This document shows positions 18,679 through 46,801 of a stretch of DNA of 64,000 bases, piece after piece (the first letter of the stretch is position 1; each line of letters begins with the position of its first letter). The position numbers were made by a program, and so were the translations under genes. The DNA is taken from positions 8,063-72,062 of the forward strand of contig KN834823.1 in assembly GCA_000827265.1 (NCBI GenBank), in the 5' to 3' direction. A model generated the notes under the pieces. That model ran no database searches. It saw nothing but the letters and a program-made list of their open reading frames with translations, and was not told the DNA's origin. The DNA is from Collybiopsis luxurians FD-317 M1. Lineage: Eukaryota; Basidiomycota; Agaricomycetes; Agaricales; Omphalotaceae.

Positions 18679-20723
18679 AATAGTGCCTTTTGATGTCTTT
18701 TATGAAATGAATCACTGTGTTTACATATATCACAAGTCATTTCTGGAGTTTCTTTTAGATTCTAAACATGCTGGAGAGGAGCTTGCATGTAATAAATTGG
18801 CCCAGCATGGAGTAATTGTTCAGCAGTGTTTTACAACTATGGAGTCATCATTTCATTTCAATATGTGCAAATTGCCTTCCTCATATTTCTTGGATGCTGA
18901 TGTAGAGGGTATAAAGGAGAGAGCTGCAAAGAACTTCAGTGAAACATTGAAGTATTGCTGCTTATTTTGAATGGATCATTGGATAGCCGGGTTGGGTGAT
19001 AGTCTAGGAGATGTGTTAATGAATTCACTGAAAAAATTTGGGGATATCCAGGCTTTTTTTTGGATAGAGGCCACGAATCTTATGCAAACCGGTAGAAGAT
19101 CTTATGAGGCAATGAGGAAGCTTAGGAAATGAATGTCAAAGATAAGTATACAGTTCTCATTTAGTACAAAATATCTGACTGGCTGTGATAGAAAGCAATA
19201 GGATCGGACAGTCTTTTGACCACGGTAACAGCACTGGAAAGATTAACACAATCCTTTACTGGTTCACCAGCAAGACTGTCCAAACCACACCTTTATATTT
19301 CCAGTCTGCCTACTGAGATTGCAACAAGCAAGGTGCCAAGCACATGGAGGGATTACTGCAACAGGTGGTCTGTGAAGGTGTTTCAAATCAAAGTGGAGCA
19401 AAAATGGGAATATACCCTGGCAGTGCTGTTAATTCTGTTGCATTCTCTAATGATGGTTTAAGCATTGTCTCCGGCTTAAATGACAATACTGTTTGCATCT
19501 GGGATGCAGATACAGGAGCAAAAGCTCAAGTATTGGAAGGTCACTCAGGATCTGTGCAGTCTGTTGCCTTCTCCTATGATGGCTTTTGCACTGTCTCTGG
19601 TTCATATGACAGTAGTATCTGCATCTGGGATATAAACACTGGAACAAATTTGTGAACTTGGGAAGGTTATACCGAAGTGGTTATGTCCGTCGCATTCTCC
19701 ACTGATGGCTCTCGAAATGTCTCTGGTTCAAAAGATAGGGCTATCAGCATCTGGGATGCAAACTTGGGAAGGAGTTTACAAACTCTCGAAGATCCCACAG
19801 AGGAAGTTCAGTCGGTTGCATTCTCCAATGATGGGCTGTACATGACTTCTGGCTCACGTGACCACACTTTGTGCATCTAGGATGCAAGCACTGGAGTGAA
19901 TTTGCAAACTTTGCAAGTCATAGAGATTGGGTTTGGTCAGTTGCCTTCTCTCATGATGGCTTCCGCCTTGTCTCTGGCTCTAATGATGGGCACATCTGCA
20001 TCTGGGATGCAAAAGACTGGAGAAAATCAGCTAACTTTGAAAGGCCTCACAACCTGGATTAGGTCTGTTGCATTGTACAATGATGAATCCTGTATTATTT
20101 CTAGTTCAGATGACAAAACAGTTTGCATTTGGGATGCAAGCAGTGGGGAAAAATTGCAGACTCTGGAAGGTCACACAGATTATGTGTACTCTGTTGCATT
20201 TTCCAGTGATGGCTACCACATTGTTTCTGGCTCACAGGACCAGACTATCTGCATCTAGGATGCAGACCGTAGAGTGAATCTTCATATTTCACCAGGTCCC
20301 AAAGATTCTGTTAACTCTATTGCATATTCCAATGATGGCTTGTACATTGTGTCTGGCTCAGGTGACCATACTGTCTGCATCTGAGATGCAAATACTGGAG
20401 CCTGTTTACAGACTTTAGAGGGTCACACAGAATCTGTCCTGTCTGTTGCATTTTCAATTGATGACTCTTGTATTGTCTGTGGCTCACAAGATCAGACTGT
20501 CTACATCTGGGATGCAAAAGCCGGAGTCACTTTGCAGATGTGATGGAGTATATTCTGTTGCATTCTCCAAAGATGGATCCCTGATTGTCTCTGGCTCAAG
20601 TGACAAGACCATTTATATCTGGAGTGCAAACACTGGAGTGAAAGTGCAGACTTTGGAAGGTCACACAAGCTGGGTTTTCTCTGTGGCATTCTCCAATGAT
20701 AGCTCCCCTATTGTTTCTGGCTC
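18679..20723 (+). pseudogene. NLR-type (NACHT-WD40) gene, first part, truncated at 5' end and split by an LTR element
   Basis: It begins in the region after NACHT with YIYHKSFLEFLLDS and FTTMESSFHF. From about 19410 come some 11 WD40 repeats of 42 residues, each with SVAFS and CIWDA-type ends. The NACHT domain itself is gone, replaced by the gypsy fragment to the left. Several tryptophan codons of IWD have become TAG or TGA (for example at 19877 and 20257), and frames shift near 19920. The gene resumes in phase at 35965 across a clean retrotransposon insertion. Together the two parts give about 14 repeats. It is clearly non-functional. Confidence 0.85.
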
Positions 20724-20728
20724 ACTTG
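20724..20728 (+). repeat. Left target-site duplication ACTTG
   Basis: ACTTG precedes the 5' LTR. The same pentamer follows the 3' LTR at 35960-35964. Removing the element restores the WD40 frame (GSL-DKTVCI). Confidence 0.95.
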
Positions 20729-21423
20729 TGTTATGCCAACACTATTTTTTCCGCTCTTTCCAACCAGTACACTCACCCCACGACTCGATAATAGTCTTAC
20801 CAACCAATTCGGCTCCCCAAATCCAACACGCATTTTGTGAGGCGAACTAACCAGTCGCTCATTCCAAACTTCTATTCACAAGACCACATGTCTTCCCACA
20901 GAAGTATAAAAGCCTTGTACCTACATCTCTCACAATAATGCTGTTATTACCTGAACTATCTTGATCTGTGTTGTTTCTGTTCTCTTGTTCACTAGTCTAT
21001 AATATTATTCTGCTTAACACCGAGTCGAGCAAACCCCATTGACACCAAGTCACTGGCCTACCCACTTCTCACTTGTCGAGCCAATTGACAAGACTATTCG
21101 ATTGCCGTAGCCTTTTGAATATTCTGTCTCGTAGGGTAAACGGACACCGAGTCACGAACCTTCCAAGTCAACCCTTGTTAATACTGTCTTAATGAGTTCT
21201 TTTGATATACAATCTCTAGTTGCACCGAGCTACTAGAATTGTTATTCGACACTTGAGGTTCATTCCTCTATATCAAATACTCAAACTGTACAGGACTCGA
21301 TCACTTGTTGTATGTAGCGACTCCCCATCACGTACTCTGTCTCAGCTGTGGTATAATAAATTACTTTCTACTCACTGAACCTGCTACAAGCTTCTAACAA
21401 CAAAGGTAGTAAAGGTCCTAACA
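20729..21423 (+). repeat. 5' LTR of the 15.2-kb gypsy element
   Basis: 695 bp, TGTTATGCC to GGTCCTAACA. It matches the 3' LTR at full length without gaps. Confidence 0.97.
20904..20948 (+). promoter_or_regulatory. LTR core promoter and predicted RNA 5' end (self-primer)
   Basis: GTATAAAAGCC at 20904 is a TATA box. About 32 nt downstream, AATGCTGTTATT (20937-20948) is the exact complement of the site just after the LTR (21425-21436). A transcript starting here could fold back and prime reverse transcription. The 3' LTR has TATCAAAG in place of TATAAAAG. Confidence 0.6.
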
Positions 21424-21424
21424 A

Positions 21425-21436
21425 AATAACAGCATT
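21425..21436 (+). promoter_or_regulatory. Predicted self-priming primer-binding site
   Basis: AATAACAGCATT begins one base after the LTR end. It does not start with the TGG expected for a tRNA 3' end. It pairs perfectly over 12 nt with the predicted RNA start in the LTR. Confidence 0.6.
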
Positions 21437-21451
21437 CTCTCCATCACCGAG

Positions 21452-24400
21452 ATGTCTGGGGAATCTGCGAAACATTTTGTAAGTGAACAAGAAAGACGGC
21501 GTCAAGAACAAGAATGCCAAAGAGCAACAAGAGCTACAAGGTTCCAGCAAAGAGAGGAGCGACGTGGAGCTTCTACACTGGACAACTGCTCAGTTTTATC
21601 AGCACCTGCGAGAGGTGCCATACCCTCAAGAACAGGGGAAATTTTGGAACATAATGATAGAGACCTGTTTGACCTGGAAAATCCTGTCGAACATGGGTCT
21701 CCTCATGTTCCGGGACACCTGGTCTCGACACCATATGTTTCAAGTCACTCCCAGCGAGGTCAGCCATATCATATGGCAGCTAGAGCTGACTCAAGGCTAG
21801 CCATGAAAGTGCCCCAATAACACCCAAAAAAGGAAGGGAACAAGAAACAATTCATTTATCGGAATTAACTCATTCCCTGGAAGTTCCTCGAGGTTTTAGT
21901 GTGGGAGTCAGCTCGACATGCCCCTTCCACACACCAACCCATCCTGAGAATGAGGATTATTATGGAGATATTGGCATATCTCCAACGACACAATATACAT
22001 CTATAGGGGCGAGATGCGAGGTCATCTCCCCATTAGAACATATCAGACATCCACTTCCTCTCACACCAAGAGAAGAAGAATCTAAATTTGCATTCCAACA
22101 ATCAGAACGAGAGATGAGTCAGGGGTTACACTCATTGGTGCCACTCTCATTAAGGGGCCCACGGTCTCTGTTCAATTTAAAATGGTCTACTCCAATAGTA
22201 GAAAGTGATGCGATACAGGCTCAGGGATTGTTGAGCCCAATCCATGATATAGGTAGAAGAACTGTCTTGTCGCTGGAGCAAAGCAGTCCATTACCTGCTC
22301 CTCCAATGACAGAAGAATTCATGAAGGAGACACAGAATTGGAACCGCGAGAGTTCCTTAATGTCCCCTCCCTATCAGAATGTTTGTGTCGTACTGTCGAC
22401 AGAATTAACACATCAATTGGTTGATTTACTTCAAATCAATCAATGCACATGTTTCGAATTAATAAAGGCAATGCAATATTATATTTGAATTATTAATGGT
22501 CGAGACCCAGAAACGAAGGACAATTTCTGGGTTCTAGCTGCCTATTTTCGGAAACGTCTAATGCAACGACCTTCCCAGTTACCTAATGGGATAAATAATG
22601 AAATATTCCAGTCGAAAGAAGTATACGAGGGAGCCCTATGGCTATCACAGCTGATTATGGATCCTGAACAAATGGAAATGGTGAATGAGGCCACCATGAG
22701 GCATCTCGAGTCGATATGAAAATTGTGAATCGATTTTCCCCTCAATACAATAGTGGACAATGAAGAGAGAAAAAATCTGAACTCTCCTATGTTATCACTA
22801 TTAGATAAAGTGGAACAAGGACGATCTGCAAGAGCAGACAACCTTACTGGGGGTTACAGTTATACAAGTCAATTTCAGGACCAGCAGAAAATAGCTCAGG
22901 TGGCAAAGGAGTATTGTAATTCTATGGGAAATACTAATACTCCAAGCTATGAGGATCTGGAAGAGTCGAGACAACTTCCACCCACTGAACTGGACTGCAG
23001 GCTGCTGATAGTACCTGAAGAAAGGAGTGAACACCAGGTGAGGACAGCAGATGGGGTTTGGGAACTCAAACCCTCCTCAGGAAAGGCTTGAGGGGAGGAA
23101 AATGAATTCTTTTCAGAAAGAACTGTGAGACGTTTGGCATTGCAAAATGCTAGCGACACACTGATGAGTGCGATAAATCCTTGAACAAGGATATTTGCCT
23201 AGCGAAGCAGTACAAGGAGAGAATCCATGGGGATGTGGGAGGCTCCTGGGTAATAAAAGCCCAGGTGGACTCAATGACAGATGAGCCAGAAGCTGCTAAG
23301 ACCACAGGGGATCCTCATACGAGTCTCAAAACCCAAACCAAGCAGGAGATTTTCTTTCCCAGAGCAGAACATTTGCAAGCTGGAAGCTCAAAAGTATGTA
23401 TTGGAGGAGAAATTCCTCTTGATGCAGCCTTACAATTGGAAAGATGGGCTGCCTGAGACAAGTATGCTGTATTGACGACTTGTTTTGCTAATGAAACTCA
23501 CCCTGTGGGCCAATATCCTGAGCAAACAGTGACAGAGCCTGATTTGGGATGCTCTTTATGGCCAAATCATTTAGGATTTAGGACTGATGGTCTGACATAC
23601 CATAGGAGAGAAACACCCAAAGCTTTCCATGAGAATAATCGCTTGGAAGGACCCAGTTGGAATGCCAGGAGTTTGGTAAACTCCCCAAACACCACCGGAC
23701 TGGGAATTCCTTTCTCGTCTCGATATTCAGATCCTGGAAACATGGCCCGAGTCAGTGAACAGCAAAACCAATGGGAGACGTCAGGACCTAGTCAGGTAAA
23801 ACAGTGGAATATGGCATACGCCCCACCTTCAAGGGAAAAGAATGAATTCAATAATGAAGGATTTAACTTCGTGAGAAGTCGAGATAACTGGGACCTTTCA
23901 TTTTCTGAAGATCAGCTCTGCCCTTCAGCTCTCGAGACTCATCACCCAATGCCCCCATTAGAGAAAAAGGAATTCACTCCCCTACAAAATGTAAAGGGTA
24001 TAGGGAAAGTGGTTAATCCTTTTGCTAAGGAATCAAGTCGCCAGATTTCCCAACCACTGAGAGCCTCAGAAGTCCTCCCTCAGCAGCCTGCAGTTCAACA
24101 AACAGTGCATGCCCCACCACCAGTAGTTGTGGAAACCATTCTGCAGGCCGCAGGATTCACTCCACCTGTATTTACAGCTGCTCCTAGGCAATATGTCCAT
24201 CCGACTGGCAGAAATTTTGACTCGATACCTGCAATTCCACATAGATCACCGGGACAAGTAACAAATGATTATCACCCTATTGTCTCAACACAGCAAGAAC
24301 CAGCAAGAGTTCCAGCTGATCAATATTGGAGATCGGGGACTCGAGAGTATAGACCCTATATAGCTGAGCCAATGTATGACTACTCGAATCGTGCCAGTAC

Positions 24401-24603
24401 CTATAGAGGGTACGGAGTAGCAGGAGCTCCAGGAGGACCTCCATATGGGGGAGTCATGCAGACGGGAGGAATTAGTGAGGGAAATTTGGAGAGAGAAAGA
24501 GATAGTAGAAATGGCAGTTTTAGAGGGGGATCTGGAGGTGGTGGACCAGGGGGACCAGGGGGACCAGGTAGTCCCGGAGGACCACCTGATGATCCTGACA
24601 ATT
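21452..24603 (+). pseudogene. Long N-terminal Gag extension of the gypsy element
   Basis: It starts at an ATG 28 nt after the LTR (MSGESAKHFVSEQERRRQEQ) and runs through three frames joined by indels for about 1,050 codons. It is hydrophilic and Pro/Gln-rich, and ends in a Gly-rich stretch (GGSGGGGPGGPGGPGSPGG). Four TGAs in the middle part (after MQYYI, RHLESI, KL and PSSGKA) stand where CGA would give a continuous frame. No domain is recognised. The frame of its last part is the frame of the capsid region that follows, so it is probably one polyprotein. Its length is far above usual fungal Gags. Confidence 0.5.
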
Positions 24604-25799
24604 GAGGGTCAAATCACAATGCATATTGGCACCCGGCAAACAGATGGGTAGCTGTACAAGGCCCCAGAGGTGAAAGAGGAGAACCGGGTCCCGCAGGATG
24701 AGACATGAGTCAGATTCTGGAATTCGATCAGCAAAAAGATCGATTAAATAAGGAAGTGAAACTTGATGTCAAAAAACCTGACCCTTTTGATGGCTCTGAT
24801 AGGTGGAAATGGGAACCTTTCCTCTCGCAAGTCCGTCGCACTTTCATGGCCAAACCTACTATCTACAAGAACAACTCAGATACAATTGGTTTTGCTGTCT
24901 CGTATTTGACAGGGGCAGCGGCTACTCATTACAATAATTTGTTGAAACAGGAAGAAGCTGGAATCCCTGTCCCTGCTCTCCATACTTGGATTGACTTTGT
25001 CGCAGAGTTTACATCATATTTTGGACTATTCGATCTGGCACAAGACGCACAGGTAAAACTGGCCTGGATCAAGCAGATGGACAACGAATCGTTTGCAACA
25101 TTTATCATTTGATTCCAGGAGTATGCTTTCAAGATGGGATACAACGACACGGCATTAGTAGCAATGCTCCAAGGGGCAGTAACCAGGAGTCTTGACGTTA
25201 CAGTAGCAGCTCAAACTCATCCCCCTCAGAATTATCCACAATGGGTACAGCGATTCCAGGAGTTGGACAATTCGATTCGTGCAACCAACACAGCTCATTC
25301 TCGTGGAGGAAATTCTGGTTTCAGGATGTATAATCCTATGGCCCCATTGAATCCTCAAAACTCTAACCTGCGACAAGGATCCAATAATAATAATGCCCAG
25401 CAAGCAGGGGGTCAACAAGGTAGGAATCAAGGTAATTGGACCAATCGACAAAGAGGAGCTGCAGCTTGGGACAGTAATGTAAATTCGGACAATATTAGTG
25501 GTACAGTATATGGACAATCTGAAGACTTTGTGAGCGCCTTGAGTCAGAATGGAAATAGTGGAAAAGGCTTAGAAAATCAGGGAGGAAATGACAGAGTCTC
25601 GAAAAACCCAGGAGACAAAGAATTCCTATGGGCAATTCGAGCCGCCAGGACCCCTGAGCAAGTCAAAGAGTTCCGTCAATGTTGTAAACTAGGACTCTGT
25701 TATAATTGTGGCAGATCAGACCATATCGGTAAAGATTGCAAGAATCGGGAGAATTGGGACCCTCCAAAAAATGGAACTTTGAGTATAAACAATCAATGA
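24604..25799 (+). pseudogene. Gag capsid and nucleocapsid of the gypsy element
   Basis: After a TGA the frame continues with a collagen-like GPRGERGEPGPAG. The capsid region (PDPFDGSDRWKWEPFL, VSYLTGAAATHYNNLL, DFVAEFTSYFG) follows, then a Gln/Asn-rich linker and one CCHC zinc knuckle CYNCGRSDHIGKDC at 25698-25739. TGA at 24702 and at 25110 (within IIxFQEYAF, arginine in relatives) interrupt it. The knuckle would bind the element RNA in virus-like particles. The order and the knuckle make the call safe. Confidence 0.85.
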
Positions 25800-26950
25800 A
25801 GTGACCAGTTGAGGGCTGCAACCTTCACTCTAGAAGGGGACCCGTCGAACAATGAGATTTGGAATGTCGAGATAGAGAACGACTCAGGAAAAGCAGAGGG
25901 TATTCCAGAGACACACTGAGAGCAGCCTGGAATCCAAAAAACCCTGCTCAAGCGGTCTGTCATGGGGCAGTAATAGAAAAAACATCCCCAGCTCATCTCT
26001 TGTCTTGCTCTAACAACTCATTTCTCGTCTCGACACATTTCCCTTTCTCCAATTCTGAAAATCTAAGCTATAATACTCTTATTGGCTTGGGCGCAACTCA
26101 TTCTTTTATTGATAAAAACCTTGCAGAAAAATTCCCAAAAAATATCTCCAATTTAGATACTCCAATTCCACTTGAACTATTCAATGGTCAACCAACTTTG
26201 GCAGGGGATATAACAAAAATCTTTAAAGATACTATCAGCTTCACCAACGGTTCAATTCAAACAGTCAAATTCCTAATAACCCAACTACACCCAATGGCTC
26301 CTATTGTGTTAGGTTTACCATGGCTCAAAGAATTCAATCCTGAAATAAATTGGAAGGATTTGACTTTGACATTCCAAGGAAGAGAACAAATTTCAGCTTC
26401 ACTAGTTGATTTGTTCACCGGTACATGGAACTTGAATACTAGCGAGAAGCAGGATACCTCAGTCCCTGACTTGAAACACAAATCAGCTTATAAAGAACAA
26501 GAAAATGTGGATGTAGACTTGTCAGTTTTGGAGTTCAATGAATGGTTGCTTTATACAAATTGGGCTCATGATTACAACAAAGATCTTGAAAAATGGAAAA
26601 ATAAATACAATATAGGGGACAATGGAAATGGATACTCCAAGAAAGCATTGAAAGCTTGGGCAGAAAGGATTGACAAAAGAAGTTCGAAACTGCCAGCATA
26701 CAAGCAGAAATGGAGGTGGATATATAAACGAGTCAGAAAATTGCATCAGGATTCTATTCCACAAGGCCTGCCAACAAGGGTATTAAATATCTCGAAAACC
26801 TCTGCACTCCAACAACAGAGAAAACATACAAAACGAGGGATGAAGATAGGAAAACCTGAAAAGGTCGAAAGGAGAATGGGTCCAAACCTCCCAGGCAAGG
26901 CAGTAAGTCTCATCAGTGCAGCTGCAATGGACACTATAATATGAGACAGG
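25800..26950 (+). pseudogene. Aspartic protease region of the gypsy element
   Basis: A linker in the Gag frame is followed by a shift to the frame that carries LIGLGATHSFIDKNLA (26078-26125). In this family the active site reads D-S/T-G. Here the codons at 26084-26092 give G-L-G, so both catalytic aspartate and the serine are lost; the serine change fits TCG to TTG. The flap and C-terminal part (PIVLGLPWLKEFNPEINW) are well kept. A basic spacer (QQRKHTKRGMK) leads to RT. The protease is inactive in this copy. Confidence 0.85.
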
Positions 26951-28168
26951 ATGCCTGCCTATTTCCTGCATATCACCACAGTATCGAATCAAGTGAATAA
27001 TGATGATACCACTAATACAGAAAAATCTGCAACTCACAAATCGATTCAAGGAAATAGGGAAGCTACAGAAAAACTTCTGACAGAAGCAGCAACTGGAGAA
27101 TCTCAAAAGGATGAAGAAGAGATACTCAAACATGTTCCCGAGAAGTATCAAGACTTCTTGGACATGTTCTCCCCAGGAGAAGCGAAGGTCTTACCTCCAC
27201 ACCGTCCATACAATTTAAAAATTGAGATGGAAGGAGACTCAGCCCCTCCCTTTGGGAAACTCTATAACATGTCGGAAATGGAGCTAAAAGCCCTAAAGGA
27301 TTATATCAATGATATGCTAGGGAAAGGGTTTATTTGAGCCTCCAACTTGCCTGCTGGAGCTCCAGTTCTATTTGTAAAAAAGAAGGATGGAAGCCTAAGG
27401 CTTTGTGTTGACTATTGGGCCTTAAATTGAATCACAAGGAAGAATAGGTATCCCTTACCCCTTATAGGCCCACTTGTCAACCAACTACGAAAGGCAAAAT
27501 ATTTTACGAAACTCAATTTGAGAGCAGGATATAACAATGTCCGAATAGCGGAAGGCCACAAGTGGAAAACAGCATTTTGTACATGATATGGATCCTACAA
27601 AATGTTGGTCATGCCTTTCAGGTTAACAAACGCCCCCTCGGCTTTCCAATTTTTTATGAACAACATTTTCCATGATTTACTGGATGTATGTGTGGTTATT
27701 TACTTGGACAACATTCTCATTTATTTGGATGACGAAAAAACCCATGAGGAACAAGTCCGAAAGGTATTACAAAGGCTACGAGACAACCACCTACACGCAA
27801 AACCAGAAAAATGCAGTTTCGATACTGACACAGTTGAATATTTGGGGGTAATAATAAATCCTAAAGGAGTGTCGATGGATCAGTCCAAAGTCAAAGCCAT
27901 AACATCTTGGCTGGCTCCATGGAATACAAAAGAACTGCAATCATTCCTGGGTTTTGCAAATTTCTATTGCAGATTTATTGACAATTATAGCGGCATAATG
28001 AAAGCCCTAACGTCACTATTGCAAAAGGATGCCATTTGGCATTGGGACAAGTTATGTCAAAGGTGTTTCGATTTATTAAAAATGCCTTTACACATGCCCC
28101 GGTGCTATGACATTTTGACCCAGAACTTCCGATTATTCTGGAATGTGATGCATCGGATTGGGCAATAG
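26951..28168 (+). pseudogene. Reverse transcriptase of the gypsy element
   Basis: Landmarks in order: [53 protein letters not shown],  [37 protein letters not shown] and the catalytic motif YLDN at 27701-27712, followed by PEKCSFDTDTVEYLGVI and SFLGFANFYCRFI. The second catalytic aspartate is N (D to N), CVDYW replaces the usual CVDYR, and MPFR the usual MPFG, all explicable by C-to-T or G-to-A changes. TGAs at 27336, 27428 and 27585 stand at arginine positions. The polymerase is dead. Confidence 0.9.
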
Positions 28169-28560
28169 CAGGAATATTGTCTCAACTGGATCTGAAAACT
28201 GGAGAAATACATCCGATTGCTTTTCATACTAGGTCCATGATACCAGTGGAAATAAATTACAATATTTACAACAAGGAGCTACTGGCTATTGTGGAATGTT
28301 TTAAAGTTTGGAGAGCCTATTGTGACAGTTCGAGATTCCAAATCCAAGTTTATTCTGATCACAGTAACCTGCAGTGGTTTATGACTACCAAACAGCTGTT
28401 GGCGAGACAAGCGAGGTGGTCAGAGGCCTTATCAGGATTTGACTTCCGAATCAACTATAGACCTGGAACTTTGGGAGCAAAACCAGACACTTTGACGAGA
28501 TGAGCAGATGTATACCCAAAGAAAGGAATCAATAGGGACTCTGCCAGAGCAGGAAGAGAT
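28169..28560 (+). pseudogene. RNase H of the gypsy element
   Basis: Starting one base shift after RT, the frame gives LECDASDWAIAGILSQ, IAFHTRSM, NYNIYNKELLAIV, VYSDHSNLQWFM, RQARWSEALSGFDFRINYRPG and PDTLTR. These are the Ty3-type RNase H motifs with the D, E and D residues present. TGA after PDTLTR lies at an arginine position. The enzyme would remove RNA from the RNA-DNA hybrid. Confidence 0.88.
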
Positions 28561-29772
28561 CAGATATTGATTCCTCCAGAACAACTCAATGCAGCATTGC
28601 TCTTGAATGAGGATTTGTTATTAGAACAGATTCAAAAGGCAGAACAAGACGAATTCATGCGAGACACAATAAAGCAGATTTGAGAAGGAAGGATTAACAA
28701 TGTGGTATTTGAAAATGGGTTACTTAAATGACAAGGTCAGATATATGTCCCTAACAATACAAACCTTCAACGAGACGTATTATCTGCCTATCACAATCAT
28801 GCACTCAGAGGACATCCAGGCGAGAAGAAAACAAAAAAGATACTCAATCAGTTGTTCTTTTGGAAAGGAAGCAGCAAAGATGTACATCACTATGTACAAA
28901 GCTGCCATACTTGTATAAGATCCAAGGCTAGAAGAACTCTCCGTTATGGGAATCTGAAACCTTTACCCATTGGGCAAAGACCCTGGAGCTCAATTTCAAT
29001 GGATCATATAGTACAACTCCTGAAAGCAGGAAAGGAACAATTCGATGCAATCCTAGTAGTAGTAGATCGGCTCACAAAACAAGCCATCTATATTCCCTGT
29101 CACATGACAGACACTGCAAAGGAATTTGCAAGACTATTTCTCAAAAATGTATTCTCAAAACATGGGCTACCAGCAGATATCATCTCTAATCAGGGAAGCT
29201 TGTTCATCTCCCAGTTTTGGAAGGAATTGTATAAGATACTTGGTATCGAGTCTCGTCTCTCGACGGCATATCACCCTCAAATGGATGGGCAGACAGAGAG
29301 AACTAATCAAAGCCTCGAAGGATACCTAAGAATCTATATGTCTTATGACCAAGACAACTGGGATGCCTTATTACCTATTGCAGAATTTGTATACAACAAC
29401 ATGCCCCATTCAACTACAGGATTAACACCCTTCTTTGCGAATAAAGGATACCACCTGAAACTTTCAATTAACCTTTCAAAGGTGAATGACTCGGAAGCAA
29501 ACCAGTATGCTACCGAGTTAAAAGAAATACACAAATATTTAAAACAATGCATATACGAAGCAAACAAGGCAGCAGCGAATCAGTTCAATTGCCACTGTGC
29601 TGGAAATCCTGATTGGAAAAAGGGCAACCAAGTCTGGTTGGACATGGGTAACATCCGAACAAGAAGGCCTACCAAAAAATTGGATCACAAGTGGGCAGGA
29701 CCCTATACGATACTCGATAAAATAGGATCTCATGCCCATCGACTCAAGTTACTGGGGGACCTATAACAAATC
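28561..29772 (+). pseudogene. Integrase of the gypsy element
   Basis: The zinc-binding domain is complete (HNHALRGHPGEKKTKKIL, CHTCIRSKA). In the core the first aspartate is kept (SISMDHIV) and the glutamate region is kept (HPQMDGQTERTNQSLEGYL), but the second aspartate reads N in ISNQGSLFIS (SDRGS in relatives). YNNMPHSTTGLTPFF and KLDHKWAGPYTIL mark the C-terminal part. TGAs near 28680 and 28730 break the first third. Catalysis is therefore lost. Confidence 0.9.
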
Positions 29773-30141
29773 CATAATGTATTCCATGTCGATAGACTAA
29801 AACCCCATCATCCAGATCCTTTCCAGCGAGTCATATCACCACCGCCACCAATCTTCATTAAAGGGGAACCGGAATATGAAGTCGGGTCGATAAAAGACAG
29901 TCATCCAATGGGAGAAACAGACAGAGGAATCCAGTACTTGATCAAATGGAAAGGGTATGACGAGGAGTCCTGGATTCCCTGGAAAGGTATGGTAGGAAGT
30001 ATTGATTTGATTCGCGAGTGGGAGAAAGCACATCTGAGGAAACAAAAGTTACCTCTCGAGCTCCTCAAAGAACTCGAAAGCCTAGCCCTGCAAGACGAGG
30101 AGGAAAGGGAGTTGAGACAAGCAGCTGAAGCTGTCATTTAA
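29773..30141 (+). pseudogene. Integrase tail with chromodomain
   Basis: HNVFHVDRLKPHHPDP is followed by a chromodomain: YEVGSIKDSH, IQYLIKWKGYDEESWIPW and a closing acidic/basic helix (REWEKAHLRKQKL). Chromodomains of Ty3-type integrases direct insertion to chromatin marks. This places the element among chromoviruses. The frame ends at a TAA at about 30139. Confidence 0.9.
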
Positions 30142-30346
30142 TTGGGAGAAATGACTCTCGAAATTGAAACCTCAACCTTAAAGGGGGGTAAAAGCAATAC
30201 TTCAAGTTTCTGTTTCCAATTTCTCAACACGTTTCTCTCTATTATTATCAAAAATCATAACAAATTCATAATTCCATTTCAGGGAAATAAAGCATACAGT
30301 GGGCATAGATTGGGATATACAGGTACAGAAGGCTGGAATGGAAGGA

Positions 30347-30979
30347 CTAATCAAAGGACAACTCAATTAATTTGTCATGTTCAGCTCGAACATTGAAAGG
30401 GATTCCAAATACTTCCTCCAGTTCCCAGGCATATAAATCCTCAACACGCTCGATCTCCATCTGTTCCCATATATCCTGCAGGGTCAGAGCCATATGGAGG
30501 CTGGGATCTGCCAATTCATCTTCATTCTTTTCGACCAATGAATAGGTCAAAGGATCCTCCCCAGTGCAAACAAAGTAGGCATTAGGGTGACCAGATGAAA
30601 AGATCACTACAGGAGATGTATTGCGAGTCTCGACAAGAGTACTGGGAAGGGAAGTGGTATTGAGAGAAGGAACAAAATTGGATAGGGAATCAGGAGTAGA
30701 GTCACTCTTAGTCTCGAAAGGAAAGGATTCAGATGAAGGACCACCCCATACGTCCATAGGGGCAATGGTGCTAGTAGTTACTGGTCCCAAGGGCAGATCT
30801 TCAATATTCAAGATACGACAAAGCTCCTCATAAATGCTGTGAAATCGAGATAATTCAACTCCACGTCCCTGGGCCAAAGCTTCAGTGTTATGACCAGTTT
30901 CTAAACCTATGAGATATTGTGCAATGTATGCAATATGTAAATTTGAATGTAAGAGTCCAAAATTGTACTGTGTAGACAA
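30347..30979 (-). CDS. Antisense gene AS3 inside the gypsy element, unknown protein (at least 200 residues)
   Basis: An uninterrupted minus-strand frame of 210 codons with residues such as YIAQYLIGLETGHNTEAL, FHSIYEELCRILNIEDLP, PLTYSLVEKNEDELADP and LYAWELEEVFGIPF. The first codon of the frame is TTG and the first ATG is near 30764, so an upstream exon is likely. It is acidic and has no signal peptide or helix. I recognise no family. It lies opposite to gag-pol, just 3' of the chromodomain. Unlike gag-pol next door it has no stop over 630 nt. Confidence 0.5.
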   Translation of the reverse strand: MSTQYNFGLLHSNLHIAYIAQYLIGLETGHNTEALAQGRGVELSRFHSIYEELCRILNIEDLPLGPVTTSTIAPMDVWGGPSSESFPFETKSDSTPDSLSNFVPSLNTTSLPSTLVETRNTSPVVIFSSGHPNAYFVCTGEDPLTYSLVEKNEDELADPSLHMALTLQDIWEQMEIERVEDLYAWELEEVFGIPFNVRAEHDKLIELSFD

Positions 30980-32382
30980 TAGCTTTCAAGACAATTTGTT
31001 AGTGTGTATGGTTAGTATGAATGGTTTGTATGAAGACAATTGTTGAGTGGAGATAAGAGACTTAATACCTATGTGAGTTCTTATTACTTACAAGCCTTGG
31101 TTATTGGAATGGTCACAGCAAGTGTAGGTGACTAGGATGCTTGATGACACAATGCCAATTGAGTAGTAGATGAACTATGGGAGGAACAGTTACTAGAGTT
31201 GTAACTGTTTGTGATTGTAAAAACCCTTGGTGTACTTGTGATATGACAGTGTTGGACTAGTTGTGGCAAATGTCACTGGATTAATGCCCTTGATGATTAT
31301 GGAAACAATTAGGGCAAGTGTTGGGAATTGCTTTGACAGTGATGCAATTTGTATGTGGAGTGCAACAGAGCCAAAGGAAGTAGTTACTTCAGTAATAATC
31401 TTCTTATAGTGTGATATCCTCTGCATTTGCTAGCTATAATTGTTGGAATGATTGTAGAGAAGGTAGGCGACAACCTTATGCAGTGACAGCAGGTATGGTT
31501 GACCTAAACAAAGTGACTATAATTGATATAGTCACTTATAACGTGATGTTCTCAGTGGTAATTGTTTAACAGTTATGGAAAATGTGAGCAATTCTCAGTG
31601 ATGGTGACAACTAAACAAGTTGTAATGGCTGGTTTGGTGACGATGCAACTTATTTATGTGTTCAATTGGTTAAAAGAAGTGGTTACTTTGACTATGGTTA
31701 CCCTTCAGATAATATTGCTGATGTTTAGTAAGAGTAATTGTTGAAACGACCTTGTTAAATGCAAGTGGTTAGTAAACAATTTGATACAAGATATACGAGG
31801 TGATGTAGGGAAATAGATTGATGTGACTACGGCTAGAATGATTCTGTTGAAGTAGACAAGTGAAACAAAAGAAAAGAGATAAAGAGACGAGGTTGCAAAC
31901 TGCAACTTTGAGAGTGAAATGGAATAGAGAAAAGACAAGGAAAAAGGAATAGATTTAGAATCAGTATTTACGACAGGATATTCGAGCTGGGGATTCGACG
32001 AGAATCCCAGTGGCTTATATACAGATTTATCACATAAATACTGGCAAACAACTAGCAGCCACCTGTTTGTCGGCGACTTCTTAGTCCCGCATTTTGGTAT
32101 TGATAGTCAGCACTTCCAAATTCTGATGTCAGTTGACAAATATATTTGTAGTTCATTGGTGAGCCATTTGTCGGATTATTGGGTCCGACAATTGCAGATA
32201 TTGTAAGCAATGTATCTCAACAGCTTTGCGTACCAAATTTGCGTAACGTTGGCAGTTAAGATTTATAGGAACTGAATGTTTTGTCTTTCGTTATGATAGG
32301 CAATCCACGTAGTTTATAGATTGTACTGAAAATAAGGAGTTAATTAGCAGGGGAAGTTGAACATACTGAATTGGAGTGGTTC
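30980..32382. other. Non-coding internal region of the gypsy element
   Basis: No frame longer than about 80 codons is convincing. The stretch is rich in TG and CA and has very few CpGs. It may hold the promoter and first exon of AS3 and the 3' end of AS2. Confidence 0.4.
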
Positions 32383-32798
32383 CTAACATTCAGCAGCAAG
32401 TTGGAGGTTGTGGGACTCAACGAGAGAGTCTCGCAACTCCTTAATAACCCAATCTTGCTCCTTAATGGTCACTTCAGCAGTTTTGTGAAGATATCTGGCT
32501 TCCTGGGCATCTCGCTAGGAAGGATCAGTGAGCCATGGAAACCCCACAACAAGTCGAAAAGACATACTGATGACTCAAGCATCTTATCTTCAAACTCCCA
32601 TGTGGTTCGACTCAAGAGTTCTCCCAACTCGTGAATCTCATCGGATTGACCTTTGACAACCCTCTGCAGTTGCCCAAACTCACAACGAGCTTGGTTCACA
32701 AGGACATCCTGATCAGATACAACTTGAGAAATACTCTCAGCAGCATCAGCGAGATGATCTAGGAACAAAGCAGAGTCAAAGGGAGAAGGGGAAGCCAT
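32383..32798 (-). CDS. Antisense gene AS2 inside the gypsy element, small coiled-coil protein
   Basis: Two exons, 32798-32568 and 32514-32383, are joined across a 53-nt intron with GTATGT and CTAG ends (32515-32567). This gives a continuous 120-residue protein starting MASPSPFDSALFLDHLADAA. The second exon reads RDAQEARYLHKTAEV and ends LQLAAEC before TAG. Splicing in phase between two coding pieces, neither with a stop, is the main evidence. The protein is mostly predicted coiled coil (heptad Leu/Ile in QVVSDQDVLVNQARCEFGQL and VIKELRDSLVE). An AATAAAA lies 53 nt upstream of the ATG. Function unknown. Confidence 0.6.
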
Positions 32799-32850
32799 GA
32801 CAAGGGAGGATCTCGAAATGAGGATAGGGAAATAGTCTTGAAAAGTGTCC

Positions 32851-32857
32851 TTTTATT
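32851..32857 (-). promoter_or_regulatory. TATA-like AATAAAA upstream of AS2
   Basis: On the minus strand AATAAAAGG lies 53 nt before the AS2 ATG. Position is plausible; the sequence is only a weak TATA. Confidence 0.3.
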
Positions 32858-33143
32858 GAGACAAGGATGCCCGATACAAACCTAATAAGGGACAAAACAT
32901 GCAGCCACATGCATATGCCTCATGGAAATTTTTGAACACTTTGATTCCCAGGAGATCTCTTATTTTGAACCTGGGGCAATTTTCTTATTCACACAAGAGA
33001 GGGGCCCAAAAAAGGAAAAGAATTAATTGGGGAGAGATATACAACCATTTAGCTAGCTAATGAGAGAAGAAATACAAGACAAGAAACTATCTACGCGATA
33101 AGGGATCTATCTAGGCACAAGGAAAGCTACAAGCCAAAAAGTC

Positions 33144-35076
33144 CTAGGAACTACTAGACAAAGGCTTCATGGGTGAAGCAGCTGCGAACTGTCCTCGAAC
33201 TGACTCGAAAAGTTGTCAGAGCTGGGAAAGTTCAGTGTCCCGCAACTGCAACTCCTCCGTGGCGACTCGTCGGGCCTCCTCACTTGCAGCCAATTTTGCT
33301 TCCAAACTCTTGATCTCGCTCTCTTGCCCCTCCAATGCCTCCCTTAATTGCTGAACCTCCTGTAAGAAATCCTATCAGAACACTAAACCAGTCAAGAGAA
33401 AAGAAAGAAACTTACCGTCAACTGAACATTGCCCATGAAATGCTGAACAAAGGACTTGAGACAATTCAGTTTGTCATCCCAATCCTTCAACTGTGCATCA
33501 CGTGAGGCCACCTGCTCCTGTAAACAAAGGTTCTCTGCCTTGGAATGCTCTGCCGAGCAAGTCAAAGCCTGGTATTCCCGGTACACTCGGAGGAGCTCGT
33601 CCTGTTGGGAATTGACGATGTTGGCAGACGTCATATTCACCACAGTTAGTGACTTGACAAATCGCAGCAGGGACTCGCTTGAGAAGGGAACAGGGGGTTT
33701 GGAAGGTGAGTGTTGCTAAAAGGGAACATGACAGAACAGGAATCAACATGATGAATGTGCGAAAATATGGAATTATGCACCAATTCTTCCTCAAGATTGT
33801 CGAATGCTCCTTGAAGAAGACCATCTGCCAACGCCCAAAGATCCTGCTCAAGCATCATCTTTCTGGAACCAGAAAGCAATGAAGATATCCTCTTGATGAC
33901 ACGGTCGATGGCAGCTCGTATCACTGAAAAAAGGAATTAGTTAGAACAGTGACATGAATGAAAGATGAGTGAACTTACTTTCATCCCGAGTCAGAAAAGA
34001 GCCTTCCGAGGGGTCTCGCTTAACAAGAGGTTCAAAAAAACCAGGTTTTCAAACTGGAAGCATCACGATAGACCCAGTTGTCAATGGCCTTCCAGACGGG
34101 GGCGGGAGGTGTCAGAACGGGAACAGGGGGAGGGGAAACATCTTCAGGATAATCCAACGTCATGGTGTCCAGCTCTTCCGGAGCTCCCATCTCCATGTCG
34201 TCATCTGCAGTGTCGCGAATGACCTCCTTCCCCTTACGAGACAGAGTCGGAACAACCTGTTCGTGACTCAACTCCCCTAAATGCAGTCCCTCCTCCCAAA
34301 GGAGCTGACTCTTTCAGAATGCATTTGAAGAAACAACTAGAAGGCTAATGAGTACTTATAATAACCGCAGACTCATTGGACTCACCAGCTTTCTGTTTAC
34401 CCTCTGAAACCCTCGGTCCATCCAACGGTAGTCCCAACTCCTCTGGATGGCTGCGATAGTAGGGAACGGTTCGTAACCCAGTTGTTAAGGCAGTCCATTC
34501 CTCGCCCCGAATAATAAACAGCCCCCGACTTGATACAATACGATAGGCAACAATGAGAGGGAGCTTAGTGAGAATATGGAACTGAAGAAGACGAAAGATA
34601 CTCTTGAAGGAACAAAATTTCTTGCTAGAAGGATAATTGGCTTCACAAGTACTGCACAATAAGGAGTCGGGGTGAAGGGAGCAAGAGGAGTGAAGATTAT
34701 GTGACTCGCAGTACTCACAAGACAGGTAGTTCCTGAAAATACTCCTCCACTCTTTGACATCTATCCTATCCAAAACCTCTGGACTCAAATTGGCCAGATA
34801 TGCATCCTCGTAAATGGGTTGGAGGCCAGTGGGAAGGGAATTGGGAACGCTGTCCATAATGGAAATGGAAGGATAGCGGAGATGCGTACTGCACTCAAAG
34901 GCCATGCGTCGCATCTTCTTCGCCATCGGGGGAGCAGAAGGAAGAGCATTGAAAAAAGGAACCAGGGATGCCAATTGGAAAGACTGCGGAACCTTAAGGA
35001 TGAGTCGGGGCCTCGACCCCCCCAAATTGCTGGAGGAGGCAGCTGGTTGGTCAGGGAACGATTGCAAAACAGACAT
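33144..35076 (-). CDS. Antisense gene AS1 inside the gypsy element: cysteine-rich plus coiled-coil protein, five exons
   Basis: Exons on the minus strand: 35076-34366, 34310-33979, 33923-33781, 33715-33416 and 33359-33144. Introns are 55, 55, 65 and 56 nt, all GT-AG. Summed exons are 1,702 nt, which is 3n+1, and the one extra base is seen as a seventh T in a T run near 34033. Allowing for it the protein has about 566 residues. Residues 120-155 hold C-x2-C-x8-C-x8-C-x2-C-x10-C, a likely zinc-binding knuckle. The last exons (ENLCLQEQVASRDAQLKDW, LREALEGQESEIKSLEAKL) are coiled coil. One TGA near the end (after ELSQL) replaces a probable CGA. A TATAAAG lies about 41 nt upstream of the ATG. I recognise no named family. 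Confidence 0.65.
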
Positions 35077-35116
35077 AGTGGTCAAAGTAAGAGAGGAAAA
35101 TGACTCAAAAACCCAG

Positions 35117-35123
35117 CTTTATA
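35117..35123 (-). promoter_or_regulatory. TATA box of AS1
   Basis: On the minus strand CTTATAAAGC lies 41-47 nt upstream of the AS1 ATG, well placed to start a short leader. Confidence 0.5.
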
Positions 35124-35248
35124 AGACCTTCAGACTTAGGATTTTTGATTGAAATCTGGCAGCCGGCACATCGAAACTCAATCTGACAGTGCAGCAGTCA
35201 CAACACTGTGTCGCATCAAAAGCTACGCATCCTTTCGAGGGCTCAAGG

Positions 35249-35264
35249 CCCTTGGGGGGGGTAA
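35249..35264 (+). promoter_or_regulatory. Polypurine tract of the gypsy element
   Basis: CCCTTGGGGGGGGTAA directly precedes the 3' LTR. A G-rich tract at this place primes plus-strand DNA synthesis. Confidence 0.75.
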
Positions 35265-35959
35265 TGTTATGCCAACGCTATTTTTTCTGCTCTTTCCAAC
35301 CAGTACACTCACCCCATGACTCGATAATAGTCTTACCAACCAATTCGGCTCCCCAAATCCAACACATGTTTCACAAGGCGAACTAACCAGTCACTCATTC
35401 CAAACTTCTATTCACAAGACCACATGTCTTCCTGCAGAAGTATCAAAGCCTTGTACCTACATCTCTCACAATAATGCTGTTATTACCTGAACTATCTTGA
35501 TCTGTGTTGTTTCTGTTCTCTTGTTCACTAGTCTATAATATTATTCTGCTTAACACTGAGTCGAGCAAACCCCATTGACACCGAGTCACTGGCCTACCCA
35601 CTTCTCACTTGTCGAGCCAATTGACAAGACTATTCGATTGCCATAGCCTTTTGAATATTCTGTCTCGTAGGGTAAACGGACACCGAGTCACAAACCTTCT
35701 GAGTCAACCCTCATTAATACTGTCTTAATGAGTTCTTTCGATATACAATCTCTAGTTGCACCGAGCTACTAGAATTGTTATTTGACACTCGAGGTTCATT
35801 CCTCTATATCAAATACTCAAACCGTACAGGACTCGATCACTTGTCATACATAGCAACTCCCCATTGCATACTCTGTCTCAGCTGTGGTATAATAAATTAC
35901 TTTCTACTCACTGAACCTGCTACAAGCTTCTAACAACAAAGGTAGTAAAGGTCCTAACA
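35265..35959 (+). repeat. 3' LTR of the 15.2-kb gypsy element
   Basis: 695 bp, same ends as the 5' LTR. By eye 25 difference sites separate the two, 24 of them CG/TG/CA exchanges. Confidence 0.97.
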
Positions 35960-35964
35960 ACTTG
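35960..35964 (+). repeat. Right target-site duplication ACTTG
   Basis: Identical to 20724-20728. Confidence 0.95.
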
Positions 35965-36655
35965 ACAAAACTGTTTGCATATGAAATGCAATCACTGGAG
36001 TAAATTTGCATACCCTAGAAGGTCACACTCATTGGGTCCAATCTGTTGCATTCTCCAATGATGGATTCCTGCATTGTTTCTGGCTCAGATGACCACACTG
36101 TCTGCATCTGAGATGCAAAGACTGGAGTTAATTTGCAGACTTTGGCTGGTCACAAACATTATGTCTATTCTGTTGCATTCTCCAATGATGATTCACATTG
36201 TCTCTGGCTCAGCTGACAAAACTATCCAAATTTGGGATGCAAAAACTGGAATGAATTTGCAGACTCTGGAAGGTCACACAGGTCAGGTTTACTCTGTTGC
36301 ATGATCCAATAATGACTCTCATATTGTATATAGCTCAGCAGATAAGACTGTATGCATCTGGGATGCAGGCCCGAGAGCCAATGTGGTAAAATCCAGAGCC
36401 CCAAGCAATGATTTTGCTCTTGCTCCACCCAAACACCTTTTTACTACTTCAGAGAGGGAGAGTGGCTGCTATTTGATTGTGATTCTCCTCATCCAAACCA
36501 TATCATGTGACTACCTCCTCCTCTTATTCAAAGTTTACCTACTTATCCCTGCATTAACATCCTATTTCAGTTTGGGCACACATCAGTTACCTATGGCCCT
36601 GATTTTGTTGGGTCCACCTGGATGAAATGCTACAATCCTACTGCTACTAAGTGAG
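35965..36655 (+). pseudogene. NLR-type gene, second part: last WD40 repeats and C-terminal tail
   Basis: The WD40 frame resumes with DKTVCI and gives three to four more repeats (LEGHTHWV, SGSADKTIQIWDAKTG, LEGHTGQV). Then comes the tail PRANVVKSRAPSND and FTTSERESG, which ends CYNPTATK in a shifted frame at about 36652. Stops (TGA at IWD tryptophans, ATG-TGA in the tail) and an indel near 36453 show it is dead. The tail is the counterpart of 170-466. It is followed by block D, as the first NLR is followed by block A. Confidence 0.85.
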
Positions 36656-44910: not shown

Positions 44911-46801
44911 TCAAACCTTTGCGAGTCCCATGGACATAGCAAAGTGTTTGGCCTTTAGAGAAGGTAAGGCTTTGGTGAAGATATCTGCTGTCATATCCTC
45001 GGTAGGACAATACGTTAAACATATTTTGCCTTCTTCAATTACATACTGAATAAAGTGATAGCGAATATCAATGTGTTTGGTTCGTGCATGGAACCGATCA
45101 TCTTTGGCCAAGGCAATAGCAGACTGATTGTCTGAAAGAACTTGAATAGGGGTTGTGATAGAACCAAAAATTTCTGATAGAAGGTTCCTAAACCAAATTG
45201 CTTCTTTTGCTGCATGGGTGAGAGCGATATACTCCGCTTCTGTAGTGGATAAAGAAATTGTATCCTGCCTTTTCGATGACCATGAAACTGCTCCTCCATT
45301 GAGCATAAATACATATCCTGAGATCACATGCCTGTCTTCCTGTGACATTCCATCTGCATCCAAATATCCTGTAATATCCTCCTGCTTCCCTCCAAAGGTA
45401 AGCCATATGTCTCTTGTGGACTTCAAATATGCATATACACACTTTAGAGTGTTCCAATGCACAATGTCAGGGTTTTGGGAAAAGCGTGCTAGAATAGACG
45501 CTGCATAGGTGATGTCTGGTCGAGTAGCGACTGAGAGATACTGCAATGCACCAAGGGCTTCTCTGTAGGGTTTGTTGCGCATCAGAGTGATTTCCTCAAC
45601 TGTGGTTGGCATTTGGTCTTTTGTAAGATAGACATGAGGGTCGAATGGAATAGTGAGGGGTTTTATATCAGAAAATCCATATCGGGAGAGAATAGCATCA
45701 ATGTATGATCGCTGTGATAGATGAATGGATTTTGAATGAAGAGATCTGCGAATCTCTATCCCAAGTAGCCAATGAATAGCTCCTGAATCGACCACTTCAA
45801 TTATATTCTTTATATCCCTTTTTAGCTGCTCCATGATAGATAGATTTTTGGTGACCAATGTCATGTCATCAACATGAATGAAGATGATGCTGAAGGGATC
45901 TGTGCGATAGAATACAGCATGATCAAAATCAGACCTTTTAAATCCTATTTTTGTCATGATTTCCCTGAATCGCTGGTACCATCGTCTACCAGCTTGTTTA
46001 AGACCATATAATGCCAATTTGAGGCGAAGCACTTGTCCTGGTTTAACACCTATATTTATACCTGGTGGTGCCTTCATGAANNNNNNNNNNNNNNNNNNNN
46101 NNNNNNNNNNNNNNNNNNNNNNNNNNNNNNNNNNNNNNNNNNNNNNNNNNNNNNNNNNNNNNNNNNNNNNNNNNNNNNNNNNNNNNNNNNNNNNNNNNNN
46201 NNNNNNNNNNNNNNNNNNNNNNNNNNNNNNNNNNNNNNNNNNNNNNNNNNNNNNNNNNNNNNNNNNNNNNNNNNNNNNNNNNNNNNNNNNNNNNNNNNNN
46301 NNNNNNNNNNNNNNNNNNNNNNNNNNNNNNNNNNNNNNNNNNNNNNNNNNNNNNNNNNNNNNNNNNNNNNNNNNNNNNNNNNNNNNNNNNNNNNNNNNNN
46401 NNNNNNNNNNNAACAGATGTGAAAGTCTCATCTGGGAAATAATCAACATCTGGGATTTGATTAAATCCTCGTACCACTAGTCTGGCTCTATGGCCAATGA
46501 CTTTTCCAGTTTCATCCTTTTTAGTCCTAAAAACCCATTTGGATGTGAGAATGTTTGCATCGTCAGGTGGAATAACAATATCATAAGTTCCTCGCTGTTG
46601 GAGTCTGGAAATTTCTTCCTTCATGGCTTCCAACCATTTGGGCCAATCTGGACATCGCATGGCTTCTGCAACTGATAAAGGATCAGACTCTATTTCTGAT
46701 GTTACCTGTGCAAGGGATGCTGTTAAATGACGAAGTTCCCTGTTTTCCTCGGCATTTCCTTCAATAATTTCCCTGACCTTCTGAGTAGGTCTCCTGGTTC
46801 A
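44911..46801 (-). pseudogene. Copia element 2: reverse transcriptase and RNase H, with assembly gap
   Basis: On the minus strand: MRCPDWPKWLEAMKEEI, TSKWVFRTKKDE and RARLVVRGFNQIPDVDY precede a run of N. After it come LRLKLALYGLKQAGRRWYQ, the catalytic FIHVDDM (about 45885-45865), IHWLLGIEIRR and then RNase H with GYLDADGMSQED, SKRQDTISLSTTEAEYIAL, SDNQSAIALA and HARTKHIDIRYHFI. The frame ends GLAKV at 44911. Apart from the gap this part is intact. A TGA at 46799-46801, before TRRPTQKVR, separates it from integrase where CGA is expected. Confidence 0.9.
46081..46411. other. Assembly gap (331 N) within RT
   Basis: The run of N removes roughly 110 residues of RT. The frame is the same on both sides, so the gap size is probably realistic. 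Confidence 0.99.

Follow-up and report, generated by a model that had tools for sequence, protein, structure and literature searches.

A lineage of Ty3/gypsy chromovirus in Collybiopsis luxurians carries two intron-containing genes antisense to gag-pol, here called gene A and gene B, each with a TATA-like box and read from the 3' LTR towards pol. Both are under purifying selection over many transpositions. On balance, we favor the view that they are accessory protein genes of the element's own, driven by promoters, spliced and regulating the element, with the different types of gene A kept by a changing target. A preliminary description of this DNA had proposed spliced antisense protein genes within a chromodomain Ty3/gypsy element, and they were found in nearly every copy examined.

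Structure of the element and its antisense genes

The element is 15.2 kb long and lies within a stretch of 64,000 nucleotides (the window). It was assigned to the chromoviruses from Pfam matches and a reading of its LTRs (Table 1), having LTRs with a target-site duplication, the order gag-protease-RT-integrase, and a C-terminal chromodomain whose match to PF00385 (E 4e-5, 23.9 bits) is slightly below the 25.1-bit cut-off. Judging purely by place, RNase H would sit between RT and integrase. The two LTRs differ by 34 substitutions in 696 positions, 15 of them within a CpG of either copy.

Table 1 Features of the chromovirus and its antisense genes, in window coordinates
Feature	Position	Strand	Basis
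Target-site duplication ACTTG (5 bp)	left 20724..20728, right 35961-35965	.	direct reading
5' LTR, 696 bp	20729..21424	+	comparison with 3' LTR
gag and zinc knuckle, two open pieces	24702..25799	+	Pfam PF03732, PF00098
pol (protease, RT, integrase), several open pieces	25856..29766	+	Pfam PF08284, PF00078, PF17921, PF24626
Integrase end and chromodomain	29767..30141	+	Pfam PF00385
Gene B exon 2, 3' portion including the stop (third proposed unit minus its solo-LTR part)	30347..30885	-	copy alignment
Solo LTR (1,503 bp) from a different element, nested in gene B but no part of the cassette	30886..32388	.	ends TGTTATGACC...TTCCTAACA
Gene B exon 2, 5' part	32389..32514	-	copy alignment
Gene B intron, 53 nt	32515..32567	-	GT..AG in 31/33 copies
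Gene B exon 1, ATG at 32798	32568..32798	-	copy alignment
Gene B TATA-like ATAAAAGG	32849..32856	-	kept in 31/33 copies
Gene A exon 5	33144..33359	-	copy alignment
Gene A exon 4	33416..33715	-	copy alignment
Gene A exon 3	33781..33923	-	copy alignment
Gene A exon 2, with an additional base in window copy	33979..34336	-	copy alignment
Gene A exon 1 with start codon at 35076 and six-cysteine motif	34386..35076	-	copy alignment
Gene A TATA box TTATAAAG, between gene and LTR	35117..35124	-	kept in 33/34 copies
3' LTR	35265..35960	+	LTR reading

Gene A runs antisense to gag-pol from 35076 to 33144, between the chromodomain and the 3' LTR. Its five exons and four GT-AG introns are as first described, except that the introns, given as 55-65 nt, measure 49, 55, 65 and 56 nt in the window copy. 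The exon sum there is 1,708 nt, the 3n+1 noted before, versus 1,707 in most copies, and it is divisible by three in 28 of 34. The predicted TATA box, six-cysteine motif and coiled coil were all present; in 33 of 34 copies the cysteines are spaced alike (CX2CX8CX8CX2CX10C), and the protein also has a long C-terminal coiled coil. The window copy contains 12 stops, and the single stop-free row among the 34 aligned has an internal deletion. With nearly all sampled copies broken, the function would have been exercised before decay or by copies outside the sample.

Gene B has two exons (32798 to 30347, also antisense) and encodes a long N-terminal coiled coil followed by a conserved C-terminal piece. 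Three antisense units had originally been proposed, but the second and third are the halves of gene B, split in the window copy by a solo LTR that is bounded by TTCAG at 30881-30885 and 32389-32393. About 100 bases at the upstream end of the third proposed unit fall within this LTR. The halves are contiguous, with no solo LTR, in 35 of the 38 loci compared, and in the remaining three (L041, L044, L046) the chromodomain-side match is absent. The solo-LTR stretch had one other match, with no cassette listed beside it, among the 40 of 101 candidates that were scored. Three separate antisense genes are therefore ruled out.

Conservation among copies and relatives

Splice, TATA and stop counts were taken from 34 aligned copies (33 at some sites). 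The GT..AG ends of the four gene A introns are kept in 33/34, 33/34, 33/33 and 34/34 copies, and intron lengths vary out of phase while the splice ends hold. With CpG sites masked, dN/dS was 0.17 for gene A and 0.27 for gene B, well below the controls (other frames, 0.80-2.03; spacer, 0.69-0.74; introns, 0.59). Diversity in gene A by codon position was 0.123, 0.072 and 0.267. Gene B lies antisense within 3 kb behind the integrase at 54 of 55 near-complete integrase loci of at least 77% identity, and the 3' LTR adjoins the cassette in the 38 compared loci. Two of the three checks suggested at the outset, a search for homologues antisense behind integrase and dN/dS across copies, did not refute the proposal of protein-coding antisense genes within the element.

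A sister family, with integrase 77-79% identical, has both antisense genes in the same order and orientation, with four of five introns recognizable by eye. The six-cysteine spacing is kept at both of its loci, where that domain is 49-51% identical. Antisense genes of similar architecture also occur in some elements with integrase about 64% and about 53% identical. At L050 the motif reads CX2CX6CX8CX2CX9C. At L051, of the family at about 53%, no six-cysteine motif was found in the 5.5 kb read, and the coiled coil gave a weak bZIP_1 match (E 0.08, below cut-off). No antisense genes were recognized in 5 kb each of the still more distant L052 and L053.

Searches with the antisense-gene proteins returned almost exclusively C. 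luxurians sequences (73/73, 53/57 and 58/58 matches), the four others being unnamed metagenome proteins; scoring in the 73-match search was confined to the 7,992 candidates with the most words in common. In Pfam, no family reached its cut-off for either gene. Neither PF00172 (Zn(II)2Cys6) nor a bZIP domain was matched by gene A or B, and PF04195 (Retand TRP28) was not listed for them at E<=1. A gene A profile gave only six weak, unconvincing matches among PDB sequences at E<=1, and 24 pattern matches to gene B in IMG/VR contigs yielded no confirmed case. Structure models of A and B had low mean pLDDT values (53.7 and 59.6), below the quality needed for a fold search, so that metal binding and nuclear action remain guesses.

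Likeness to known antisense genes

Canonical Zn(II)2Cys6 spacing is CX2CX6CX5-12CX2CX6-8C. Fungal transcription factors of this type share with gene A six cysteines, the order CX2C..C..CX2C..C and a coiled coil, but the spacing in gene A departs from the canonical one, to which that of L050 is nearer. Among fungi, Zhao et al. 2011 reportedly described an antisense gene, brtn, in Boty of Botrytis cinerea. According to the available text of two sources, Boty is a gypsy element with brtn as an additional antisense gene (PMC7264820, PMC8365987). By description only, it resembles the C. luxurians element as a fungal gypsy element with an extra antisense gene, but it is from an ascomycete and has one such gene named, whereas the C. 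luxurians element has two.

The preliminary description could name nothing comparable, which was too strong: plant elements have a known class of additional antisense ORFs that lie between pol and the 3' LTR, and Boty is a fungal case (PMC7264820). Plant examples of this class, aORF-3R, given there include Grande gene23, RIRE2, Retand (TRP28) and PvRetro13, and an own promoter and a nuclear protein are reported for the Grande ORF (PMC7264820, PMC11963269). Like the C. luxurians genes, they are antisense, between pol and the 3' LTR, and present in most copies. Retand, however, belongs to a non-chromovirus plant lineage. The same excerpts describe no spliced antisense gene or hypervariable member among plant aORF-3R, and the word "intron" has 0 occurrences in that of PMC11963269. 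What such additional antisense genes do for LTR retrotransposons is acknowledged as an open question (PMC7264820, PMC11963269), and a search for spliced antisense transcripts is called for (PMC7264820). In the literature covered, largely outside subscription journals, no fungal element was described with antisense genes that are spliced or hypervariable as a set. A mushroom chromovirus with two spliced antisense genes, one of them hypervariable, looks like a new form of this known arrangement.

The antisense proteins of HTLV offer a further parallel. As far as the accessible text goes, HTLV-1 HBZ and APH-2/3/4 are antisense, spliced and regulatory, and their coding regions lie close to the 3' LTR. 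A bZIP coiled coil is present in HBZ, and the antisense proteins of HTLV act as repressors of LTR activity (PMC10186651). HTLV is an unrelated retroelement, however, and its antisense promoters are inside the 3' LTR, whereas the TATA boxes of genes A and B are outside it.

Gene A diversity and the proposed role of the antisense genes

Silent-site divergence in gene A is about ten times that in its neighbor (dS 0.57 versus 0.06 for gene B; LTR divergence 0.044). Its copies are strongly divergent, mosaic types; at a threshold of 0.06, exons 1-4 separate into 9 to 15 clusters and exon 5 into 6. Distances between gene A copies are weakly associated with LTR distances (rho 0.09-0.33), as are those of gene B (rho 0.16; 24/500 permutations). 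So many versions hint at a job needing constant change, although old subfamilies, and not selection for diversity, could account for the variation.

Genes A and B most likely encode regulatory accessory proteins. Each would be transcribed from its own internal promoter and then spliced, and the introns would survive because the reverse-transcribed sense genomic RNA does not present them as introns. The proteins might, with less certainty and by comparison with HTLV, act on the element's transcription, its chromatin or host silencing, the six cysteines of gene A perhaps binding metal. A changing target, either a host repressor or rival copies, would maintain the gene A types, and recombination at reverse transcription may shuffle them. 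A bolder version, which we put forward tentatively, makes gene A a specificity gene subject to diversifying or balancing pressure. The chromoviruses of this mushroom would maintain a polymorphic set of spliced antisense regulators and swap pieces of them by recombination at reverse transcription, with the remainder of the element homogenized again and again, and would in this way track a changing host repressor or tell own copies from rivals. Gene A would then be a retrotransposon counterpart of a hypervariable viral gene, on the antisense strand. The fungal case offers numerous copies with a clear exon structure, strong constraint on coding and a sister family for comparison, and with one gene so much more diverged than its neighbor, it points to type-specific regulation as a role that can be tested in a saprotrophic mushroom.

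A rather improbable alternative is that A or B represses its own family, as copy-number control or superinfection immunity, with the gene A types as immunity groups. Many coexisting types, their weak association with LTR distance and the HTLV precedent would suit this, but the association could be plain linkage, and gene B shows it too. Slightly less probable is a role mainly at the level of RNA, in which antisense transcripts of these units regulate gag-pol through dsRNA or interference and the proteins are incidental. The position of both genes agrees with this, and dsRNA regulation is suggested as a possible role for such ORFs in the available part of PMC7264820. Yet an RNA-only role needs neither the amino-acid constraint seen in both genes, nor the conserved splice ends, nor a six-cysteine spacing shared between families. 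An RNA role and a protein role are compatible with each other.

Less probable again is the capture of host genes, suggested earlier and taken here as a recent transduction with drift still under way. Introns and own promoters do resemble host genes, but no host homologue appeared among the protein matches, all named ones being from C. luxurians itself, and gene B stands beside gene A at 68 of the 79 gene A loci listed. One of the other 11 was inspected and adjoins an LTR of the same chromovirus family. Since the sister family has both genes, their acquisition was not recent, and neither protein searches nor loci support capture.

An artefact of gene prediction is barely conceivable despite the many broken frames of the window copy, chance open frames being ruled out by splice conservation and dN/dS below controls, together with in-frame indels and the same two models in the public annotation (P0022, P0080). 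There, genes A and B are labeled hypothetical proteins; dozens of such C. luxurians proteins (73 and 57 database matches) are retrotransposon genes or their relatives.

Gene structures and a nested LTR

The chromovirus lies in contig 75 of a 64.3-Mb genome whose annotated proteins carry the name Collybiopsis luxurians FD-317 M1. Its two 696-bp LTRs show 34 differences, of which 15 fall in a CpG of either copy, and the duplication ACTTG stands on both flanks. Gag, zinc knuckle, protease, RT, integrase and chromodomain were recognised, in separate open pieces.

Coordinates of the chromovirus and its antisense genes in the window
Feature	Coordinates	Strand	Details
Ty3/gypsy element	20729-35960	plus (gag-pol)	two LTRs and target duplication
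Gene A	35076→33144	minus	exons 34386-35076, 33979-34336, 33781-33923, 33416-33715, 33144-33359
Gene B	32798→30347	minus	intron 32515-32567; interrupted by solo LTR 30886-32388

Three antisense units had been proposed in the preliminary description. The first, with five exons, four GT-AG introns and a TATA box of its own, was borne out as gene A, but the other two are halves of a single gene B, split by 1,503 bp. This insert starts with TGTTATGACC, ends with TTCCTAACA and has TTCAG flanking both ends, and because of these features it is identified as a nested solo LTR of another LTR element. In a DNA search (40 of 101 candidates scored), 30347-30885 and 32389-35076 were repeated across the genome; the insert matched one other place only, at 96% identity and without a listed cassette next to it. 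The flanks of the insertion site were contiguous in 35 of 38 fetched loci, and in the remaining three the chromodomain-side match was not seen. Public gene models P0022 and P0080, annotated as hypothetical proteins, are genes A and B and agree with the two-gene structure, P0080 having additional residues where the solo LTR is located. It apparently models most of the LTR as an intron and retains a few residues from its edge.

Coding, splicing and divergence

The copies demonstrate coding, splice signals, selection and diversity for genes A and B. Across the alignment of 33 copies and the window (five of 38 fetched copies were excluded for length), GT..AG was kept at the four gene A introns in 33/34, 33/34, 33/33 and 34/34 rows and at the gene B intron in 31/33. 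Intron lengths vary regardless of phase, and the gene A exon sum is divisible by three in 28/34 rows. Gene B measures 891 nt in 28 rows and 890 nt in four, with L025 truncated and L041 reading N. TATA-like boxes are also conserved (TTATAAAG, that of gene A, in 33/34 copies; ATAAAAGG in 31/33). No clean intron loss was found in the aligned rows; the one lacking intron 3 (L045) carries a larger deletion.

Internal stops are predominantly TGA (156/184 in gene A, 46/53 in gene B) and CpG-mutable columns hold 57% of LTR differences, a pattern that decay of CpG sites in inserted copies would produce. Once these columns were masked, dN/dS between copies, a check proposed earlier, came to 0.171 over 561 pairs of gene A and to 0.270 over 528 pairs of gene B, where L041 drops out; unmasked values were 0.22 and 0.38. 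Controls gave 1.15 and 1.93 in other frames of gene A, 0.80 and 2.03 in those of gene B, 0.69-0.74 in the spacer and 0.585 in introns, which places the neutral level of the method nearer 0.6-0.7 than 1, with both genes well below it.

Gene A is far more divergent than its surroundings. Over 32 rows (all but L025 and L041), CpG-masked divergence between pairs averaged 0.13-0.22 across its exons. The gene A leader gave 0.072, the spacer ahead of gene B 0.049, gene B itself 0.022-0.026 and the chromodomain end region 0.031; the 3' LTR gave 0.044 (38 of 39 copies). The high-divergence block runs from near the gene A start codon to approximately 120 bp beyond its stop, and dS is 0.57 in gene A versus 0.061 in gene B. 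Compared with the window, integrase-chromodomain DNA was 92-95% identical and the stretch preceding gag mostly 88-93% (40 candidates scored for each).

Gene A may be under selection for diversity, though recombination among old subfamilies would leave a similar pattern. Cluster membership shifts from exon to exon: copy L036 is nearest to L028 over the first half of exon 1, to L012 across exons 2-4 and to L029 in exon 5. L030 belongs with L028/L029 through exons 1-2, at 0-1.4% difference, and departs from that type in exon 3 (nearest 7.8%). Gene A and gene B distances had rank correlations of -0.08 to 0.25, with one of 0.41 (exon 5 against gene B exon 1), which is weak evidence alone since pieces of gene B correlate no better among themselves (0.07-0.16). 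For gene A, dN/dS was 0.42 (4 pairs) and 0.31 (58 pairs) in close pairs and 0.16 in distant pairs, a trend of recent decay overlying long purifying selection that speaks against simple positive selection. Correlation with LTR distance was weak for gene A (rho 0.09-0.33, reached by 0 to 27 of 500 permutations) and slight for gene B (0.16, reached by 24 of 500); linkage may explain both.

Occurrence of the cassette

The aligned copies were found via the cassette and cannot tell how regularly it is present. An integrase-based survey (117 of 298 candidates scored) kept 55 loci with at least 77% identity covering at least residues 36-344, shorter fragments being excluded. In answer to a check proposed in the preliminary description, homologues lie antisense behind the integrase of other gypsy copies: gene B was at most 3 kb downstream at 54/55 loci, the exception being C47:103093. 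At least 79 gene A loci were typed. At 68 of them gene B follows downstream in the same orientation, and at 11 it is not listed there; one of the 11, on C7 (L049), adjoins an LTR of the chromovirus family; both locus lists are lower bounds. On contig C26 (59000-72850), two oppositely oriented antisense cassettes leave only about 5 kb between them for what should be two gag-pol regions, and are possibly truncated copies.

In the sister family (L047 and L048, integrase 77-79%), both genes keep their order and orientation. Identity to the main family is 49-51% in the gene A domain and 36-37% in gene B, the six-cysteine spacing is unchanged, and GT..AG introns were recognised by eye at 4/5 places, intron 2 being ambiguous. 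At 64% integrase identity, L050 carries an antisense ORF with CX2CX6CX8CX2CX9C 2.7-3.3 kb beyond the chromodomain, the position of gene A exon 1 in the main family once the solo LTR is discounted; this type of motif appeared in none of 200 mononucleotide shuffles. The ORF has antisense relatives behind two other integrase loci, C7:1019341 (88%) and, as a weak match, C78:199472 (33% over 75 residues), giving 3/10 integrase loci among the matches listed at 57-68%, L050 included. For five further matches to the ORF, integrase was not among the matches listed beside them. More antisense frames close to the L050 chromodomain (L050:915-1836) are possibly a decayed gene B counterpart. L051 (integrase 53%) has an antisense coiled-coil ORF adjoining the chromodomain, repeated in C54 and C26, thus at 3/8 integrase loci among the matches listed at 50-53%. 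A search for sequence homology of the L050 and L051 groups to genes A and B detected none; position and architecture link them to the cassette. In two elements with 41% and 38% integrase identity no such antisense genes were recognised over 5 kb of each. Beyond this genome, all 73 matches to the gene A protein (58/58 for residues 60-235) and 53/57 to gene B were from C. luxurians, the other four being metagenome proteins (66-90% identical).

Proposed working and genomic surroundings

Genes A and B would be transcribed independently on the antisense strand and yield proteins, and their introns would persist since sense RNA alone gets copied. Least certain is that these proteins might act in the nucleus as regulators, as suggested by the six-cysteine motif, the coiled coils, the nuclear location reported for the Grande gene23 protein (PMC7264820) and the example of HTLV, which has antisense regulators that are spliced (PMC10186651). 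The motif described earlier for gene A was found, and its coiled coil is predicted at residues 392-522, with that of gene B at 9-122, in models of low overall confidence. The portions available of PMC7264820 and PMC11963269 leave antisense-ORF function open, and the former calls for a search for antisense, spliced transcripts; neither a spliced cassette of two genes nor a hypervariable member is described in these portions. Literature searches likewise brought up no spliced or hypervariable antisense set in a fungal element, though this absence is not proof.

Approximately 3.2 kb (21425-24605), mostly 88-93% identical among copies (40 candidates scored), separates the 5' LTR from recognisable gag, and may be an extra gene or a leader of unusual length for gag; three long frames tried there had no Pfam match. 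The chromovirus interrupts a WD40-repeat stretch, which continues on either side (19317-20723 and 35966-36370). Further retroelements in the window include Ty1/copia-type frames at 44911-49114 (minus) and 53865-54704 (plus), with PF14223 gag and PF07727 RT. Another RVT_1 reverse-transcriptase frame lies at 9283-9900 (plus).
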